The position numbers were made by a program, and so were the translations under genes. Source: an uncultured Bacillota bacterium (GTDB lineage Bacteria > Bacillota > Dehalobacteriia > UBA7702). Taken from it: a stretch of 41,273 bases of DNA. The notes under the pieces are model-generated. The model was given only the letters and a program-made list of their open reading frames with translations, was not told the DNA's origin and made no database searches. The DNA lies in NCBI GenBank assembly GCA_902796855.1, contig CADBQN010000029.1:1-41273 (forward strand), read 5' to 3'. Position 1 is the stretch's first letter, and every line of letters begins with the position of its first letter. Of the stretch, positions 3,151 to 35,339 are shown in pieces.

Positions 3151-3281
3151 ATTGCCTATGAAGAGTGCGCGAGAGACAAGCTCGTTGACCGCACGACAAC
3201 CTGCCGCAACGGTAAGGTGCCAAAGCTTGAACGATGGGTTTTTTTAGATAAAAGGCCTGTTGAACAATGGGTCTGTTTTTT
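3151..3281 (+). promoter_or_regulatory. SAM riboswitch (SAM-I/IV-variant type) with expression platform
   Basis: The leader contains the SAM-I clan core: GACAACCTGC, then AAGGTGCCAA, then GAACGATGGG. Visible pairings are P1 (3154-3159 with 3234-3239), P2 (GTGCG 3165-3169 with CGCAC 3190-3194, extended by CGAG 3170-3173 with CTCG 3181-3184), P3 (around 3200-3219), and a pseudoknot of the P2 loop CAAG (3177-3180) with CTTG (3226-3229). It lacks the P4 hairpin of classical SAM-I, like the SAM-IV and SAM-I/IV variant classes. The segment GATGGGTTT (3233-3241) resembles the terminator 3' arm AATGGGTCT (3266-3274), so the 5' arm at 3253-3261 can pair with either. SAM binding would lock P1 and allow termination. 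The exact subclass is by eye. Confidence 0.85.
3253..3281 (+). terminator. Riboswitch-controlled intrinsic terminator
   Basis: AGGCCTGTT (3253-3261), loop GAAC and AATGGGTCT (3266-3274) form a 9-bp stem including several G-U pairs, followed by G and six Ts. It competes with an antiterminator formed with 3233-3241. Confidence 0.75.
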
Positions 3282-3313: not shown

Positions 3314-4060
3314 ATGCTTTTTGATTCTCCCCTTGTTGTCCATGTGCCGCACGCTTCCCGTTATATTCCGGAAGATATGCGGCGGGATTTTTTATGTCTG
3401 GATCTTGATCGGGAACTGCTCCTGATGACGGATTTGTATTGCGACGAATTGTTTGACACAGAGGCGGAACGGATCCTATTTCCTGTCAGCCGTCTTGTCT
3501 GCGATCCAGAGCGTTTTCGTGATCCTGAGGAGGAGATAATGGAAAAAGTCGGTATGGGCGCCGTCTACACGCGCTGCTCTGGCGGTTTGCCTTTACGCGA
3601 CATTGACGCGTTGGATCGGGAAATGATCTTACGGCGGTATTATGATCCGCATCATCAGCGTTTAACGGAAGCGGTGCGAAGGCGCTTATTATCTTGGGAA
3701 CGCTGTCTCATCATTGATGGCCATTCATTTTCTCCTGAACCACTTTCCCATGAATCAGATCAAACGACACCGCGTCCGGATATCTGTATCGGGACGGACT
3801 CGTTCCATACATCGCCGCGCCTGTCGGAAAGAGCGATGACCTTTTTCCGTCGATCAGGATATGAATGCTGTTTGAATCGCCCCTTTGCCGGAACGATTGT
3901 ACCGGGAGCTTATTACAGGCGGGATCCGAGGGTCGCGTCACTCATGATCGAGATCAACCGAAAGCTTTATATGAACGCGGATGGGGAAAGAAATGCCGAC
4001 TTTCAAAAAACCGTTGAGGTCATCGGAGCGTTTCTGGACATGATGAAAGAAGAATGTTGA
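3314..4060 (+). CDS. N-formylglutamate amidohydrolase family protein
   Basis: A 248-residue protein of the N-formylglutamate amidohydrolase superfamily, zinc-type hydrolases that cleave N-formyl- or related N-acyl-glutamate in histidine breakdown. Recognisable blocks are VHVPHAS (residues 9-15), SRLVCDPERF, YDPHHQRL, IIDGHSF, PDICIGTD, NRPFAGTIVPGAYY and MIEINRKLYM. An AAGGAGG site precedes the ATG. No histidine-utilisation gene is nearby; instead a SAM riboswitch controls the gene, so the physiological substrate may differ from formylglutamate. The coding sequence looks less GC-rich than its neighbours, which could reflect transfer. Confidence 0.88.
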   Translation: MLFDSPLVVHVPHASRYIPEDMRRDFLCLDLDRELLLMTDLYCDELFDTEAERILFPVSRLVCDPERFRDPEEEIMEKVGMGAVYTRCSGGLPLRDIDALDREMILRRYYDPHHQRLTEAVRRRLLSWERCLIIDGHSFSPEPLSHESDQTTPRPDICIGTDSFHTSPRLSERAMTFFRRSGYECCLNRPFAGTIVPGAYYRRDPRVASLMIEINRKLYMNADGERNADFQKTVEVIGAFLDMMKEEC

Positions 4061-22771: not shown

Positions 22772-23212
22772 TTGAAAAAGACAGGCAGCAGAAAAAACGC
22801 GCGTGAAACGGCGTTTAAAATGATCTTTCAAATGGACGTCGGCAAAAATACGCTGAGCGTCGCCGAAGAAACGCTGAACGAGGCGGTGGCCGACGGTCTC
22901 GTCGAAGAAAGGGACAGGGATTATGTCCTGGCTCTCGTCGCCGGTGTCGCCGAGAAAAAAGAAGAGACCGACGCCTTTATGGCCAAACACGCCAAGGGCT
23001 GGACGGTCGATCGGATCAACGCCGTTGAGAAGAATCTCATTCGTCTCGCTCTTTATGAGATCTTCTATCTGAAAGAGATTCCCTACGAGGTCTCCGTCAA
23101 CGAAGCGGTGGAACTCGCGAAGAGCTATGGCGATGAGGACGCCTACGGCTTTGTCAACGCCGTTTTGGACAACGCCCGGCCGGAAAAAGCGGACGGGGAG
23201 AAATTAAGATGA
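22772..23212 (+). CDS. nusB: Transcription antitermination factor NusB
   Basis: A 146-residue all-helical NusB. It starts with the typical RKNARETAFKMIFQMD, followed by DYVLALVAGV and the C-terminal EIPYEVSVNEAVELAKSYG. NusB with NusE binds boxA RNA to prevent premature termination of rRNA transcripts. TTG start at 22772 with GGAGAAG; the stop overlaps the next ATG by 4 nt. Confidence 0.95.
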   Translation: MKKTGSRKNARETAFKMIFQMDVGKNTLSVAEETLNEAVADGLVEERDRDYVLALVAGVAEKKEETDAFMAKHAKGWTVDRINAVEKNLIRLALYEIFYLKEIPYEVSVNEAVELAKSYGDEDAYGFVNAVLDNARPEKADGEKLR

Positions 23213-24195
23213 TTTTAGCTTTTGATACGAGCTGTTATACGTCGTCGGTGGCGCTGATGGGCCTTGACGGCGCGCTTTTAAGCGACAAGAGGAGAGTTTT
23301 GGATGTGCCCCCCAAACAACGGGGGCTGCTGCAGTCCGAAGCTCTCTTTCAGCATATTCACAATGTCCCCGCTTTTTTGGAAGAGTTGGCGGCGGAGTAT
23401 GACTTTCGTGACATTGCCGCCGTTGGGTGCAGCACAAGGCCGTGTCCGAAGGACGGTTCCTATATGCCGGTTTTCCTTGGCGGGGAAAAAATCGGCCGTT
23501 CCGTCGCCGCTGCCCTCGGCGTGCCCTTTATGGAAGCGACGCATCAGGAAGGGCACATGATGGCCGGCTGGCATTCTCTGGGAATGATTGACGATATCCC
23601 CGATTCGTTCCTGCTCTGCCATTTTTCCGGCGGCACTTCCGATATTCTGGCGGTGGAAAAAACGGGGCGGGGACGCTATCGTTTGGATTTAAAGGCCTTC
23701 GGCAACGACCTCCACGCCGGGCAGTTCGTCGACAGGATCGGCGTTTTGCTGGATCTGCCCTTTCCCTGCGGCCGCCATCTGGAAAAATTGGCGATGGGAC
23801 AAAAAGGGGACGTGCCGGATGTTAAAATATGGGTAAAGAACGGGGAGTTCTCCTTTTCCGGACAGGAAACGGCCATTCGCCGTATGGCGGAAGGCGGTCT
23901 GCCGCCGGAAACGGCGGCCCGCGCCGTGGAACGCGTCATCGCCCGGACGCTGAAAAAAGCGGTGGCGGAGGTCATGGCCTCAACGGGCATAGGCAGCGTT
24001 CTCTTTGTCGGCGGCGTGATGTGCAACGGGTATATCAGGGATTACCTCACCCGGAAGCTGAACCGCGGCAGTCTCTTCTTTGCCGATCCCCGTTACGCCT
24101 CGGACAACGCCGTCGGTGTCGCGGCGCTGACCTATCAACGATTGGGAGGAAAAAACGATGATGCCACAGGCAGTATCGGTCAGCCGTCTGAATAA
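23209..24195 (+). CDS. TsaD-like (peptidase M22/Kae1) ASKHA protein
   Basis: A 328-residue ASKHA-fold protein of the TsaD/Kae1 superfamily. Visible parts are an N-terminal FDTSCYTSSVAL phosphate loop, the metal motif ATHQEGH, HFSGGTSDILAV, and the C-terminal VGGVMCNGYIRDYL and ASDNAVGVA. True TsaD makes tRNA t6A; this shorter paralogue, often located between nusB and xseA in Clostridia, is of unknown function and should not be taken as the main TsaD. Its end overlaps xseA by 38 nt. Confidence 0.88.
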   Translation: MILAFDTSCYTSSVALMGLDGALLSDKRRVLDVPPKQRGLLQSEALFQHIHNVPAFLEELAAEYDFRDIAAVGCSTRPCPKDGSYMPVFLGGEKIGRSVAAALGVPFMEATHQEGHMMAGWHSLGMIDDIPDSFLLCHFSGGTSDILAVEKTGRGRYRLDLKAFGNDLHAGQFVDRIGVLLDLPFPCGRHLEKLAMGQKGDVPDVKIWVKNGEFSFSGQETAIRRMAEGGLPPETAARAVERVIARTLKKAVAEVMASTGIGSVLFVGGVMCNGYIRDYLTRKLNRGSLFFADPRYASDNAVGVAALTYQRLGGKNDDATGSIGQPSE

Positions 24196-25369: not shown

Positions 25370-25647
25370 CGAAAGAAATGAATTTTGAGGAAGCCATCAA
25401 AGAACTGGAACAGACGGTAAAGGCCATGGAAAGCGGCGATCTCGGTCTCGACGACCTGCTGGCCGATTTTGAGAAAGGCATCGGCCTGCTCCGCCTCTGC
25501 GAAAAGAAGCTGGCCGAGGCCGAAGGCCGCGTCGCCGTGCTGACCCAGGCGGAAATCACCGCGGCGGAAGAGCCCGCCGCGGAGGTGCCGGATGAAGATA
25601 TCTTTGCCGGTCCGGAATTTCCCGCCGACGATGATCTTCCCTTCTGA
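25366..25647 (+). CDS. xseB: Exodeoxyribonuclease VII small subunit
   Basis: A 93-residue XseB: FEEAIKELEQTVKAMESGDLGLD followed by FEKGIGLLRLCEKKLAEAE is the family signature. Several small subunits bind the coiled coil of each XseA. The acidic C-terminal tail (about 65-93) is longer than usual. The start overlaps the xseA stop by 4 nt. Confidence 0.95.
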   Translation: MTKEMNFEEAIKELEQTVKAMESGDLGLDDLLADFEKGIGLLRLCEKKLAEAEGRVAVLTQAEITAAEEPAAEVPDEDIFAGPEFPADDDLPF

Positions 25648-25657
25648 GGATACGGCA

Positions 25658-26536
25658 ATGACGAGGATCGACACGGTATTAAACGAAAAGAAAGCGCTTT
25701 TGGAACGGTATCTGGAGGATTTGCCCCGGGGCGGGAAAAACCTCCTGACGGAATCCATGGCCTATTCCCTCGGCGCCGGCGGGAAACGGCTGCGCCCGGC
25801 GATCTTTTTGCTGACGGCGGAGCTGTACGGCGAAGACGCCGAGACCCTGCTGCCCTTCGCCGCGGGGATCGAGATGATCCATACCTATTCCCTGATCCAC
25901 GATGATCTGCCGGCGATGGACAACGACGATTACCGCCGGGGCGCGCCGACGAACCACAAAGTCTACGGCGAGGCCCAGGCCATTCTGGCCGGGGACGGTC
26001 TGCTGACCGAAGCGTTTTATATGATGGCCTCTGTCGGAAAAAGCTTCCCCGCCGAACGGGTCGTTGATGCCATCGCCCTTGCTTCGGAGCTCGCCGGTAT
26101 CGGCGGCATGGTGCGGGGACAGACTTTTGACGTGGCGGGAGAGGGCAAACCGCTGACCCTTCGGGAGCTGAAAGCCATTCACGACGACAAAACGGCGGCG
26201 CTGATCCGGCTTTCGCTGATGAGCGCGGCCCTGTTGGCCGGCGCTCCGGTGGAAGATATCGACCGCCTCAGCGACTGCGGTCACGCTCTCGGCCTCGCGT
26301 TCCAGATCGTCGATGATATTCTCGATCACGAAAGCACCTTTGAGGAACTGGGTAAGCCCATCGGTTCCGACGAGGAGCAGGGGAAGACGACGTATATTAC
26401 CCTCCTCGGCGCCGACGGCGCCCGGGAAGCGGCGAAAGAGGCGGCGGAGTCCGCGGCGAAAGCCGCCGCCGCGCTTTCCGTCGACGGTTCGCTTTTGGCG
26501 GAACTGGCCGAATCACTGCTCCACCGAAAGAACTGA
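25658..26536 (+). CDS. ispA: Polyprenyl (farnesyl/geranyl) diphosphate synthase
   Basis: A 292-residue trans-isoprenyl diphosphate synthase. The first Asp-rich motif is DDLPAMDNDD (DDxxD with a two-residue insert, as in bacterial FPP/GPP synthases), the second is VDDILD, and GGKRLRP contributes the IPP-binding residues. It condenses IPP with DMAPP/GPP to make FPP. The ATG at 25658 has GAGGA upstream; an in-frame upstream ATG lies inside xseB. It is the last gene of the operon, closed by a strong terminator, unlike genomes where ispA runs directly into OLE/dxs. Confidence 0.94.
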   Translation: MTRIDTVLNEKKALLERYLEDLPRGGKNLLTESMAYSLGAGGKRLRPAIFLLTAELYGEDAETLLPFAAGIEMIHTYSLIHDDLPAMDNDDYRRGAPTNHKVYGEAQAILAGDGLLTEAFYMMASVGKSFPAERVVDAIALASELAGIGGMVRGQTFDVAGEGKPLTLRELKAIHDDKTAALIRLSLMSAALLAGAPVEDIDRLSDCGHALGLAFQIVDDILDHESTFEELGKPIGSDEEQGKTTYITLLGADGAREAAKEAAESAAKAAAALSVDGSLLAELAESLLHRKN

Positions 26537-26560
26537 ATATCCGTATTTTATACACAGAAG

Positions 26561-26598
26561 AAACCGACGATCCCTTTTCTGAGACCGTCGGTTTTTTT
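26561..26598 (+). terminator. Intrinsic terminator after ispA
   Basis: AAACCGACG (26561-26569) pairs with CGTCGGTTT (26586-26594), followed by more Ts. It also lies behind the minus-strand SLH/LRR gene. Confidence 0.85.
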
Positions 26599-26610
26599 AT
26601 CATAATTGAC

Positions 26611-30384: not shown

Positions 30385-30413
30385 ATAATATAATTTTTCC
30401 CCGATAATGTCAA
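30385..30413 (-). promoter_or_regulatory. Lipoprotein gene promoter
   Basis: On the minus strand TTGACA (30408-30413) and TATTAT (30385-30390) with a 17-bp spacer. It diverges from the OLE promoter about 100 bp away. Confidence 0.75.
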
Positions 30414-30508: not shown

Positions 30509-30537
30509 TTGCATTGGATGAATAGAAACTGTATAAT
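30509..30537 (+). promoter_or_regulatory. Promoter of OLE RNA-oapA-dxs
   Basis: TTGCAT (30509-30514) and TATAAT (30532-30537) with a 17-bp spacer. The predicted start, about 30543, coincides with the first nucleotide of the closing stem of the OLE RNA. Confidence 0.8.
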
Positions 30538-30542
30538 AGAGT

Positions 30543-31125
30543 AAACAGGTGATGCGGTATCCTAGTCAGCAATGATCTGTTTGAAAACGGGCCTAAAAAT
30601 CCGTTAAGGGCATATCGATGAAGTTTCTGGTGTTGGCTTCTTACGCCCAGTTTGGGGCTGATGCTGGAAGTTAAGGTTGATGGGGAATCCTCAACGGCAT
30701 GAGGGCTGACCCAGCTTCCGTGGAGACCCTTGACTGTGGGGAGCTCTTTTTGGTCAAAGAGGGAACTACGGCTTGGGAAGAACCTGTATTCGGGTGAACT
30801 GGGTACAGTGTAGCCTGGCTTGAGTGGTTAAGGTGGAGAAGCAAAACCACCCCGCTGCGGAAAGGCCAATTTCCCGTCGGTGGTGTCGAAACCGGTACTG
30901 CAAAAGAGCCTAAAACAGATCGGCGCTGCCGAGGAAAACTCCTAGGCCGTTTATTTGATAAGGTTTTGCGGGGATTAAAGTGCGGACTAAGTGGCAATCC
31001 GGTACCGCATGGGTCTCTGAGTAAAGGGAAACCGCCTTTTCGGCGACGAAAGGGTTCGGGGATGGGAAAGCCTTCCGGACCAAAGCCGCAGCGTTTACCC
31101 GCGAAGCTGTCACCTGTTTTGTTTT
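30543..31125 (+). ncRNA. ole: OLE RNA (Ornate, Large, Extremophilic)
   Basis: A roughly 580-nt intergenic segment without a convincing ORF, located directly before oapA and dxs, the diagnostic OLE context. The ends pair perfectly: AAACAGGTGA (30543-30552) with TCACCTGTTT (31110-31119). A second long-range helix is visible: ATGCGGTA (30552-30559) with TACCGCAT (31003-31010). Local hairpins include AACGG/CCGTT near 30590 and TCGGC/GCCGA near 30925. The length is close to the about 600 nt known for OLE RNAs, which bind OapA at the membrane and help cells resist cold, ethanol and metal stress in Halalkalibacterium halodurans. Identification rests on synteny, size and folding; I could not run the covariance model. 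Confidence 0.92.
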
Positions 31126-31155
31126 ACCTTTGTTTTATGATCTTTGGAGCGTCCA

Positions 31156-31746
31156 TTGTCCAATAAAAAGAATGACAAAAGAAACCAAGGTACGTTTAAA
31201 CGGATCTTCATCGTTTTCATCTGTACCTTTTTTTGTGCCACCGGCATCAGCCTGCTGACGACAACAGCGGTGGAGCGTCTCACCGTCGTGCCGCTGCTCT
31301 TTCTCGTTCTGCTGATCGTCGTCGCCATCGGCGTCTTTTTCGACGCCATCGGCGTGGCGGCGCTGGGAGCGGATATTGTGCCTTTTAACGCCCGCTCCTC
31401 GCGGAAAGCGCCGGGAGCCGCCGTTACCCTGCGGCTGCTGCGCAAGGCGGATCTCGTCGCCAACATCTGCTGCGACGTCGTCGGCGATATCTGCGGCATC
31501 GTCTCCGGTGCCCTCGGCGCCACCCTCGTGGTCATCCTTGGCGATACGGTGACGAACACGCTTTTGCTCGCGGCGGTCATGGCGGGGCTCGTTTCCGCTT
31601 TTACCGTTGGCGGCAAAGCGATGATGAAGGGGGTTGCCGTCCGCAACGCCGACCGGATCATGGAGATCATCGGCGTTGTTCTGGATTTCCGGAACTGGGG
31701 ACGGTTCCTGACAAAAAATAACCGATCGGAGGGGGATTCACGATGA
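31156..31746 (+). CDS. oapA: OLE-associated protein A (OapA)
   Basis: A 196-residue membrane protein encoded directly after the OLE RNA, matching OapA. It has about four hydrophobic segments: FIVFICTFFCATGISLLTTT, VVPLLFLVLLIVVAIGVFFDAIG, the conserved CCDVVGDICGIVSGALGATLVVI and TLLLAAVMAGLVSAFTVGG. A basic stretch (RSSRKAPGAAVTLRLLRKA) between them fits RNA binding. OapA binds OLE RNA and carries it to the membrane. The start is TTG at 31156, six nt after GGAG; an alternative TTG at 31144 overlaps that site. The stop overlaps the dxs start by 4 nt. Confidence 0.92.
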   Translation: MSNKKNDKRNQGTFKRIFIVFICTFFCATGISLLTTTAVERLTVVPLLFLVLLIVVAIGVFFDAIGVAALGADIVPFNARSSRKAPGAAVTLRLLRKADLVANICCDVVGDICGIVSGALGATLVVILGDTVTNTLLLAAVMAGLVSAFTVGGKAMMKGVAVRNADRIMEIIGVVLDFRNWGRFLTKNNRSEGDSR

Positions 31747-33626
31747 TTTTAGATCGCGTTCAGAGCCCTGACGACGTAAAAAAACTTGATCCTGCCGATC
31801 TGCCCCGGCTCGCTGAGGAGATCCGCGGTTTTATGGTGGAGCATGTCGCCGAAACCGGCGGGCATCTGGCGCCCAGTCTCGGCGTGGTGGATCTGGTGAT
31901 CGCCATGTGCCGCGTCTTTGATTTTCCGAAGGACCGTGTGATTTTCGACGTGGGGCACCAAAGCTACGCCTATAAGATCCTCACCGGCCGCCGGGACGCT
32001 TTTTCCACCCTGCGACGGCTCGACGGCATCAGCGGTTTTCCCAAACGGGAGGAAAGCGTCTACGACGCCTTTGACACGGGCCACAGCAGCACGTCGCTGT
32101 CGGCGGCCCTCGGCCTCGCCGTGGCCAGGGATTTAAAGGGAGAAGATTATAAAATCATCTCCGTCATCGGCGACGGCGCCCTGACCGGCGGCATGGCCTA
32201 TGAGGCGATGAACAACGCCGGCAACCGCCGGGAAAACCTGATCGTGATTTTAAACGACAATCAGATGTCCATTTCACGCAACGTTGGCGCCATGGCCAAA
32301 CACCTGGCCAAAGCACGGACGGCTCCGAAATACGGACGGCGGAAGCGCTCCGTTAAACGTCTGCTGAGACGGACGAGCGGCGGTGCGAAAGTCCTTTCCG
32401 GTCTGCGCCGCGTTCGGGACAGTCTGAAGAACCTGATGGTCCGGGGAATGCTCTTTGAGGAAATGGGCTTCACCTATATGGGGCCCGTCGACGGTCACGA
32501 TATCCGTGAATTGGAGCAGTACCTCAGCTACTGCTGCAACGTGGACGGCCCGGTGATGCTCCACGTGCTGACGAAAAAAGGGAAGGGATATCCCTTCGCC
32601 GAGGCGGAACCGGATAAATTCCACGGCATCGCCGCCTTTGACCCGGCCACGGGCCGCCTGCGGCAGGAGAAAAGGGAAGCGACGTTCAGCGGCGTTTTCG
32701 GCGACTCTTTGACGGAACTGGCGAAAGAGGATCCCCGGGTGGTGGCCATTACCGCCGCCATGCCCGACGGGACCGGTCTGCGCGCCTTCGCGAAAACGTT
32801 TCCGGATCGCTTTTTTGATGTCGGCATTGCCGAGTCCCACGCCGTCACATACGGCGCGGGCCTCGCGGCCAACGGCATGAAGCCCTGTGTCGCCGTGTAT
32901 TCCTCTTTTCTTCAGCGCGGTGTCGACCAGGTGTTCCACGATGTATGTCTGCAGAATCTGCCGGTGGTGTTCGCCGTTGACCGCGCCGGTGTCGTCGGTG
33001 AGGATGGCGAGACGCACCAGGGCATCTATGATATCTCCCTGCTGCGCGCGTTCCCTCATATGACGCTGCTGGCTCCCTCGACCGAAACGGAGCTGCGGAT
33101 GATGCTGAAATACGCCTTTTCCCTCAACGCCCCCTGTGTCCTGCGCTATCCGAAAGGCGAGGTCTCCCGTTGGGACGCGTCTTTCGTTCACAGACCGTTG
33201 GATGAAGGCGGCGAGCCGGTTCGGGAAGGGGAGCGCGTACTGCTCCTGCCTCTGGGCATCATGATGGAAGCGTCGCTGGAAGCGGCGGATCTCCTGAAAG
33301 AAAAGGGATATTCCGTCGGGGTGTTCAGTCCCCGGTTCGTCAAGCCCCTGGATGAAAAGAATCTTTCCGCTCTGGCGGAGCGGTACGATTACTTTGTGAC
33401 CGTGGAGGATCACGTTCTCGAAGGCGGTTTCGGCTCCGCCGTGGAGGAATTTGCCGCCCGGACCGGCGCCGCTGTCAGCGTCGTCGCCCTCGGCTATAAT
33501 GTCGGCATGATCCCGCAGGGAAAACGCTCTCAGCTCATGGAAATGCACGGTCTCGACGCCGCGGGCATTGCCCGCCGCGTTGAGGAACTGTTAAAAAACA
33601 GTACGAACAATGAAAAAAAGACTTGA
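31743..33626 (+). CDS. dxs: 1-deoxy-D-xylulose-5-phosphate synthase
   Basis: A 627-residue thiamine-diphosphate enzyme that makes DXP from pyruvate and glyceraldehyde 3-phosphate, the first step of the MEP pathway. Visible motifs are VGHQSYAYKILTGR, the TPP site IGDGALTGGMAYEAMNNAG with ILNDNQMSIS, VGIAESHAVTYGAGLA, and DRAGVVGEDGETHQG in the pyrimidine-binding domain. A C-terminal transketolase domain is complete. Length is normal. It is co-transcribed with oapA (ATGA overlap) and overlaps tlyA by 17 nt. Confidence 0.97.
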   Translation: MILDRVQSPDDVKKLDPADLPRLAEEIRGFMVEHVAETGGHLAPSLGVVDLVIAMCRVFDFPKDRVIFDVGHQSYAYKILTGRRDAFSTLRRLDGISGFPKREESVYDAFDTGHSSTSLSAALGLAVARDLKGEDYKIISVIGDGALTGGMAYEAMNNAGNRRENLIVILNDNQMSISRNVGAMAKHLAKARTAPKYGRRKRSVKRLLRRTSGGAKVLSGLRRVRDSLKNLMVRGMLFEEMGFTYMGPVDGHDIRELEQYLSYCCNVDGPVMLHVLTKKGKGYPFAEAEPDKFHGIAAFDPATGRLRQEKREATFSGVFGDSLTELAKEDPRVVAITAAMPDGTGLRAFAKTFPDRFFDVGIAESHAVTYGAGLAANGMKPCVAVYSSFLQRGVDQVFHDVCLQNLPVVFAVDRAGVVGEDGETHQGIYDISLLRAFPHMTLLAPSTETELRMMLKYAFSLNAPCVLRYPKGEVSRWDASFVHRPLDEGGEPVREGERVLLLPLGIMMEASLEAADLLKEKGYSVGVFSPRFVKPLDEKNLSALAERYDYFVTVEDHVLEGGFGSAVEEFAARTGAAVSVVALGYNVGMIPQGKRSQLMEMHGLDAAGIARRVEELLKNSTNNEKKT

Positions 33627-34401
33627 CATTATTTTAATGGAACGAAAACTGTTCCCCTCGAGGGAAAAAGCGCGGGCGGCCGTTATGACCGGACGGATCC
33701 TCATCGGCGGGAAAAAGGAGACGAAAGCCGGAACGATGCTGGCCGATGACGTGAAGATCGAGATCATCGGCGACGATCCGCCCTTTGTCAGCCGCGGCGG
33801 CCTGAAACTGGCGAAAGCGGTAAAGCGGTTCGGCCTGGATTTCACCGGGAAGACCGTGCTCGACATCGGCGCTTCCACCGGCGGCTTTACCGACTGCGCG
33901 CTGCAGAACGGCGCGAAAAAGGTGTATGCCGTCGATGTGGGCTACGGCCAGCTGGCCTGGTCCCTGCGGAGCGATGACCGCGTTGTCGTGCTGGAAAAGA
34001 CCAACGCCCGCTATCTCACGGCGGAACAGGTGCCGGAACAGGCGGATATCATCGTCATGGACGCCTCGTTCATCTCTTTGAAAAAGCTGATTCCGCCGCT
34101 GAAGTCCTTTCTGAAAGACGACGGTTATTTTGTCGCCCTGATCAAACCGCAGTTTGAGGCGGGAAAGGAAAAAGTCGGCAAAAAAGGTGTGGTGCGGGAT
34201 CCCGCGGTTCACATCGAAGTCATCGAGGACCTGCTGGCCTTTTTTGAAGCGGAAGGCCTCGCCGCGGAGGAACTGACCTTCTCCCCGATCAAAGGACCGG
34301 AAGGGAACCGGGAGTATCTCGTAAAGCTCGGTCGGGAAAAGCGAAGCGCGCCGCTGACGCCGACGGCGGAGCTTGTGGCCGCGGCTTTTGAGGAAATATA
34401 A
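33610..34401 (+). CDS. tlyA: TlyA family rRNA (cytidine-2'-O)-methyltransferase
   Basis: A 263-residue protein: an S4 RNA-binding domain (about 1-60; RLDIILMERKLFPSREKARAAVM) followed by a Rossmann methyltransferase of the FtsJ class (VLDIGASTGGFTDCAL, DVGYGQLAW, VLEKTNAR, DIIVMDASFISL, LIKPQFEAGKEKVGKKGVV). TlyA methylates 2'-OH of cytidines in 16S/23S rRNA and affects capreomycin sensitivity. dxs-tlyA-(nadK)-argR-recN is the standard Firmicute order. Confidence 0.95.
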   Translation: MKKRLDIILMERKLFPSREKARAAVMTGRILIGGKKETKAGTMLADDVKIEIIGDDPPFVSRGGLKLAKAVKRFGLDFTGKTVLDIGASTGGFTDCALQNGAKKVYAVDVGYGQLAWSLRSDDRVVVLEKTNARYLTAEQVPEQADIIVMDASFISLKKLIPPLKSFLKDDGYFVALIKPQFEAGKEKVGKKGVVRDPAVHIEVIEDLLAFFEAEGLAAEELTFSPIKGPEGNREYLVKLGREKRSAPLTPTAELVAAAFEEI

Positions 34402-34481: not shown

Positions 34482-35339
34482 ATGAAAAAAATCGGCGTTC
34501 TCGCCAATCGCAAACGCGATGTCGGCGCTGTCAGGGATGAGATCATTTCATATATCGAATCAAAAGGCGCCGTCGCCGTCGCTCCCGACGGTGATTACGA
34601 CGTCGTCGATCAACGATTCCTCCGCGCTTTCATGGAGGGAGAGGCGAGGGACTGCGAATGTCTGATCGTTCTCGGCGGCGACGGAACGCTTCTTTCCGTT
34701 GCCCGTCAGGCGGCGTATTTTTCCATCCCGATTTTCGGGATTAACCTCGGTCATCTCGGTTTCCTCTCGGAAGTCGATCCCGGCGACGGTCTTTACGTCG
34801 CCATCGACCGCATCCTCAGGGGTGATTTTACTCTCGAGGAGCGTATGATGCTCTATGTCCGCGTTTTCCGCGGCGAAAAGCTCTACCGGGAATATCACTG
34901 TCTGAACGACTGCGTATTGACGAAGAGACTCTTTGAGGGGCTTGTCCACATCGACGCCTTTGTCGACGACAAAGTTTCCCTCTCCTATAACGGCGACGGC
35001 CTTATTGTTGCCACGCCGACAGGCGCTTCGGGCTATTCCCTTTCCGCCGGCGGGCCGCTGGTCTCCCCGGAAATGGAGGCGATGATCCTGACGCCGGTCT
35101 CCGCCCACAGCCTGTACAGCCGCTCCATTGTCATCGGCGCGGACCGTGACGTGATGCTGCGGGCCGATAAAAAAGACGGCCGCTGTGTGCTCAGTATCGA
35201 CGGCAAGACCTCGACGCTGACCATCAGCGAGAAGGACAGCGTCCGCATCAGCAAATCGTCACTGAAAACGACATTCCTGAGGCTCAACGACCGCTCCTTC
35301 TTCCACGTCCTCAATGAAAAACTGAGGGACAGATCATGA
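34482..35339 (+). CDS. nadK: NAD kinase
   Basis: A 285-residue ATP-NAD kinase that makes NADP. The GGDG catalytic motif is in LIVLGGDGTLLSVARQ, followed by INLGHLGFLSEVDP, the ND motif (CLNDCVLTKR) and the glycine-rich TPTGASGYSLSAGGPLVSP region. Length is normal. AGAGG precedes the ATG. The stop overlaps the following methyltransferase by 4 nt. Confidence 0.96.
   Translation: MKKIGVLANRKRDVGAVRDEIISYIESKGAVAVAPDGDYDVVDQRFLRAFMEGEARDCECLIVLGGDGTLLSVARQAAYFSIPIFGINLGHLGFLSEVDPGDGLYVAIDRILRGDFTLEERMMLYVRVFRGEKLYREYHCLNDCVLTKRLFEGLVHIDAFVDDKVSLSYNGDGLIVATPTGASGYSLSAGGPLVSPEMEAMILTPVSAHSLYSRSIVIGADRDVMLRADKKDGRCVLSIDGKTSTLTISEKDSVRISKSSLKTTFLRLNDRSFFHVLNEKLRDRS

Follow-up and report, generated by a model that had tools for sequence, protein, structure and literature searches.

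OLE RNAs form a class of large, non-coding bacterial RNAs that are abundant, about 600 nt long and membrane-bound. The locus analysed here raises the question of whether an OLE RNA separated from ispA owes its own promoter to this separation or had it beforehand. It lies in a contig of 41,273 nt from an uncultured Bacillota bacterium (CADBQN010000029.1, assembly GCA_902796855.1), called the window below, and it was compared chiefly with two congeners (G001 and G002) and one member of the same family, the MAG Candidatus Cryptoclostridium obscurum (G003), which is the nearest named relative. The gene order in the window, spoIIIA-nusB-tsaD-like-xseA-xseB-ispA-(two minus-strand genes)-OLE-oapA-dxs-tlyA-nadK-argR-recN, is the familiar one of Clostridia apart from the two minus-strand genes. 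The first-pass annotation had placed oapA and dxs next to OLE, a terminator after ispA, and an SLH/LRR gene and a lipoprotein gene on the opposite strand, and all of these were recovered (Table 1).

Two further observations concern the remainder of the window. A SAM riboswitch (3153-3240, plus strand, 51.3 bits) precedes a gene (3314-4060) that only weakly resembles N-formylglutamate deformylase and is unusual as a target for a riboswitch of this class. The nusB/xseA interval encodes a divergent TsaD-like protein (23209-24195, plus strand; 103 bits versus a cut-off of 296), and the ORFs at this position in G002 and G003 open with a very similar sequence.

Table 1. Features of the OLE locus and its neighbourhood (window coordinates)
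Feature	Position	Strand	Basis
ispA, farnesyl diphosphate synthase	25592-26536	+	NF045485, 325.9 bits
Terminator hairpin 3' of ispA	26557-26599	+	fold z -4.6 on +, -6.5 on -
SLH + BspA-type LRR surface protein, 987 aa	26611-29574	-	Pfam SLH x3, LRR_5
Predicted lipoprotein, 231 aa	29645-30340	-	MKRILLTMIFGCALIFAGCG signal with lipobox
Putative divergent promoter of the lipoprotein gene: TTGACA, 17, TATTAT	30385-30413	-	11/12 consensus matches
Putative OLE promoter: TTGCAT (30509-30514), 17 nt, TATAAT (30532-30537)	30509-30537	+	sequence; conserved in relatives
OLE RNA, full length, predicted mature RNA	30543-31125	+	cmscan RF01071
End-to-end stem, 5' arm	30543-30552	+	pairs with 31110-31119; co-variation test
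Second long-range helix, 5' arm	30962-30972	+	Rfam consensus structure, MFE fold
Second long-range helix, 3' arm	31098-31108	+	Rfam consensus structure, MFE fold
End-to-end stem, 3' arm, then U-rich tail	31110-31119	+	pairs with 30543-30552; co-variation test
oapA, OLE-associated membrane protein A, 196 aa, TTG start	31156-31746	+	DxxxD motif, identity to OapA-position proteins
dxs	31743-33626	+	TIGR00204, 757.7 bits
tlyA	33610-34401	+	TIGR00478
nadK	34482-35339	+	NAD_kinase Pfam

The OLE RNA and its end-to-end stem

The identity of the RNA is supported directly. The Rfam covariance model of OLE (RF01071, cmscan) matches positions 30533-31129 of the plus strand with 432.9 bits (E 5.4e-124), the gathering score being 50 bits; model positions 1-616 are all covered and both ends are present, which bears out the earlier assignment over its full length. 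This is the only OLE copy in the 2.11-Mb genome. A phage or plasmid origin was considered for it and rejected, as no phage match and only a single distant plasmid match, from another species, were obtained.

Both long-range helices described in the first-pass annotation were found. The end-to-end stem joins AAACAGGTGA to TCACCTGTTT in 10 perfect base pairs, and two G-U pairs lengthen it to 12. These positions are unpaired in the Rfam model of OLE, and the stem was therefore tested separately. In 37 loci, ends taken from the same genome gave a mean score of 10.7 versus 6.4 for ends from different genomes, and the observed score was equalled in none of 2000 permutations, a figure that is no strict probability as the loci are mutually related. 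The sequence of the stem varies between families while the pairing is kept. Because ends pair far better within their own genome than when swapped, the test indicates that the stem is co-varying and not a product of chance. The second helix is present in both the Rfam structure and the MFE fold. Judged from sequence and predicted structure, the locus is an ordinary full-length OLE RNA beside its partner gene oapA.

OLE might still be a mere structured leader of the oapA-dxs mRNA that is not released separately. The start of oapA lies about 37 nt past the end stem and a promoter scan of the OLE-oapA interval found none, as would suit a leader, but the full-length OLE, its co-varying end stem and U-rich tail, and the RNA of about 630 nt seen in Halalkalibacterium (H.) halodurans (PMC9723947) make this reading unlikely. 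Moreover, OLE stands apart from both oapA and dxs in two relatives (G045 and G054), and is therefore more than a leader.

The OLE promoter and the insertion upstream of it

The putative OLE promoter combines a perfect -10 element with a weak -35 element that matches the consensus at three of six positions, and it was missed by the consensus scan. Its conservation is nevertheless seen directly in the relatives: both congeners keep it as TTGCAA-17-TATAAT before OLE, and G003 has TTGAAT-17-TAAAAT. In 30 of 37 OLE loci, a perfect TATAAT lies within the 46 nt that precede the end stem, versus 9 of 296 control windows, which were taken further upstream of OLE. It is found in 10 of the 14 loci with ispA close upstream and in 20 of the 23 others. 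The OLE of H. halodurans has its own promoter too, according to a statement in PMC9723947 that cites Ko and Altman 2007.

The independent promoter proposed in the first-pass annotation is thus supported, while its derivation from the split between ispA and OLE reverses the order of events. Because G001, G002 and G003 also carry the promoter with ispA directly upstream, the split did not give rise to it. The comparison indicates that the promoter is the older of the two, and a long-standing, widely shared component of the OLE locus.

The split itself consists of a stretch of about 3.9 kb with two minus-strand genes between the ispA terminator and the OLE promoter. Like the window, G001, G002 and G003 have xseA-xseB-ispA, OLE-oapA-dxs-tlyA-nadK and the promoter, but they lack the SLH/lipoprotein insertion, and no SLH/LRR_5 gene separates ispA from OLE in any of them. 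The end of ispA lies 45-70 nt upstream of OLE in G002 and G003. The contig of G001 runs from ispA through a hairpin with T-runs and the promoter into OLE and breaks off after the initial 135 nt of the RNA, and a terminator between the two genes is already present in this congener. Because two congeners and one family member have ispA directly before OLE, the stretch appears to be a recent insertion, present in the window's species alone of those compared and known from one assembly, the single genome available for the species. The inserted gene pair is the only feature unique within the sample and nothing suggests that it affects OLE. The strong ispA hairpin is followed by a U run and probably acts as a bidirectional terminator that serves the SLH gene as well.

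The SLH/LRR gene is one of many paralogues in the window's genome. Its protein has 100 matches in this 2.1-Mb genome (G000) versus 27-34 in the relatives. The predicted lipoprotein has no family match in Pfam or NCBIfam and no homologue among 20 relatives. A mobile element was rejected as the source of the insertion, with no long flanking repeats and no transposase among the genes.

It is decidedly unlikely that the split is an assembly misjoin and the surface-protein genes are foreign to the site. The genome is in 84 contigs, numerous SLH genes can cause misjoins and the split has been seen in this one genome of the species, but the inserted stretch is bounded by a terminator and a well-formed divergent promoter, and its ends carry no long repeat.

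The window OLE and that of H. halodurans are alike in their full-length model match, adjacent oapA, downstream dxs and own promoter. In H. halodurans, however, a single polycistronic transcript also covers the cluster (PMC12265935), whereas in the window the terminator and the two opposite-strand genes split OLE from ispA. With this strong terminator and 3.7 kb of opposite-strand genes in between, it is scarcely credible that OLE is transcribed mainly by read-through from the upstream xseA-ispA operon, as the H. halodurans example might suggest.

OLE in relatives and its protein partners

The locus had also been regarded as an unusual case, lying outside a continuous ispA-dxs transcript and possibly in a host-associated anaerobe. 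The comparison does not support rarity on either point. Among 38 genomes of the relative set with readable upstream DNA (window excluded, sample weighted to the window's class), ispA lies less than 400 nt upstream of OLE in 12 and at 400-1600 nt in 4, while in 22 it is absent from the upstream DNA covered, a stretch of 1.4 to 10 kb depending on the genome. In four of these 22, the four that were inspected, ispA is located elsewhere in the genome. Genes resembling rnhB and yraN, as read from translated ORFs, take the place of ispA upstream of OLE in several families. An OLE promoter had already been published as well, and an own promoter together with distance from ispA is common for OLE.

Some loci of the relative set differ further. 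OLE is unlinked from oapA, with the two on separate contigs, in G054 (L048, C85 7886-8482, 405 bits; oapA on C73) and in G045 (L049, C1 347246-347821, 403 bits; oapA on C5). The strand that encodes OLE in G045 also carries a c-di-AMP riboswitch (L049 8906-9041, minus strand), some 200 nt further downstream. The OLE RNAs of L034 and L037 were found by Rfam and not by the text-motif search.

The source of Candidatus Cryptoclostridium obscurum is presumably the chicken caecum, and two further OapA matches come from records labelled 'Lapin'. The presence of OLE in gut clades and gut anaerobes has already been published (PMC11332333). The human-gut isolate Pusillibacter faecalis MM59 carries an OLE of 399.8 bits (L087, NZ_AP023421.1 200833-201497) in the record of plasmid pMM59_01, which is 504 kb long and typed as conjugative, so that a core gene block and OLE reside on a second replicon. 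This locus resembles the window in having OLE, a CNNM-annotated oapA, dxs, tlyA, nadK, argR and recN, as well as a hairpin followed by a TTGATT/TATACT-like promoter and then OLE. It differs in its plasmid record and in an upstream ABC transporter and cupin gene, with no ispA.

OapA, OapB and OapC are all encoded in the window's genome, as they are in H. halodurans. The start of oapA is most likely the TTG at 31156, preceded by GGAG at 31146-31149, a slight correction to the earlier reading. The predicted OapA contains the published DxxxD motif as DVVGD and shares 27-76% identity with OapA-position proteins from 34 OLE loci. It has no match in Pfam or NCBIfam, nor in a sequence search of solved structures. 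Its predicted model is all-helical (pLDDT 83.5), and the nearest solved structures are the CNNM proteins 7m1t, 7m1u and 7cfg (Foldseek probability 0.98-1.00, E 0.05-0.5), a likeness reported before for OapA (PMC11332333). No oapA was found in four OLE-negative relatives. OapB is encoded by a 92-aa gene in the map/infA interval that matches PDB 7k9b, 'OLE-associated protein B' (1.3e-8), and OapC by an 80-aa YbxF gene in the rpoC/rpsL interval. A CNNM-domain search of the genome found no CNNM/MpfA gene, an absence to be expected because MpfA and OLE are known from published work to be anticorrelated. With OapB and OapC encoded and no CNNM/MpfA gene, a standard OLE ribonucleoprotein is therefore expected.

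Proposed expression and function of the OLE unit

We consider it very probable that OLE belongs to a unit with its own promoter, from which an RNA of about 580 nt is released into an OapA/B/C particle, and that the insert of about 3.9 kb leaves this unit intact. Transcription would begin near 30543-30545 from a sigma-70-type promoter and would extend through oapA, dxs, tlyA and probably nadK. The released RNA, closed by its end-to-end stem, would join OapA, OapB and OapC in a membrane-bound ribonucleoprotein, as elsewhere. In H. halodurans, a role of OLE has been demonstrated under cold, alcohol, Mg2+ and poor-carbon-source stress, and the particle may aid the response to the same stresses here. 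The surface-protein gene pair would have entered between an existing ispA terminator and an existing OLE promoter.

The two divergent promoters are separated by about 95 bp, which could couple OLE to the inserted lipoprotein/S-layer genes. We regard such coupling as highly improbable; if true, remodelling of the cell surface in the window's species would be linked to the stress particle that OLE forms.

The window adds one clean OLE locus to those known and does not illuminate the biochemical function of the RNA. Its bearing is on the expression of the family: a promoter so widespread would make OLE independent of transcription from ispA, and the expression unit may be better placed as promoter-OLE-oapA-dxs than as the whole isoprenoid cluster.
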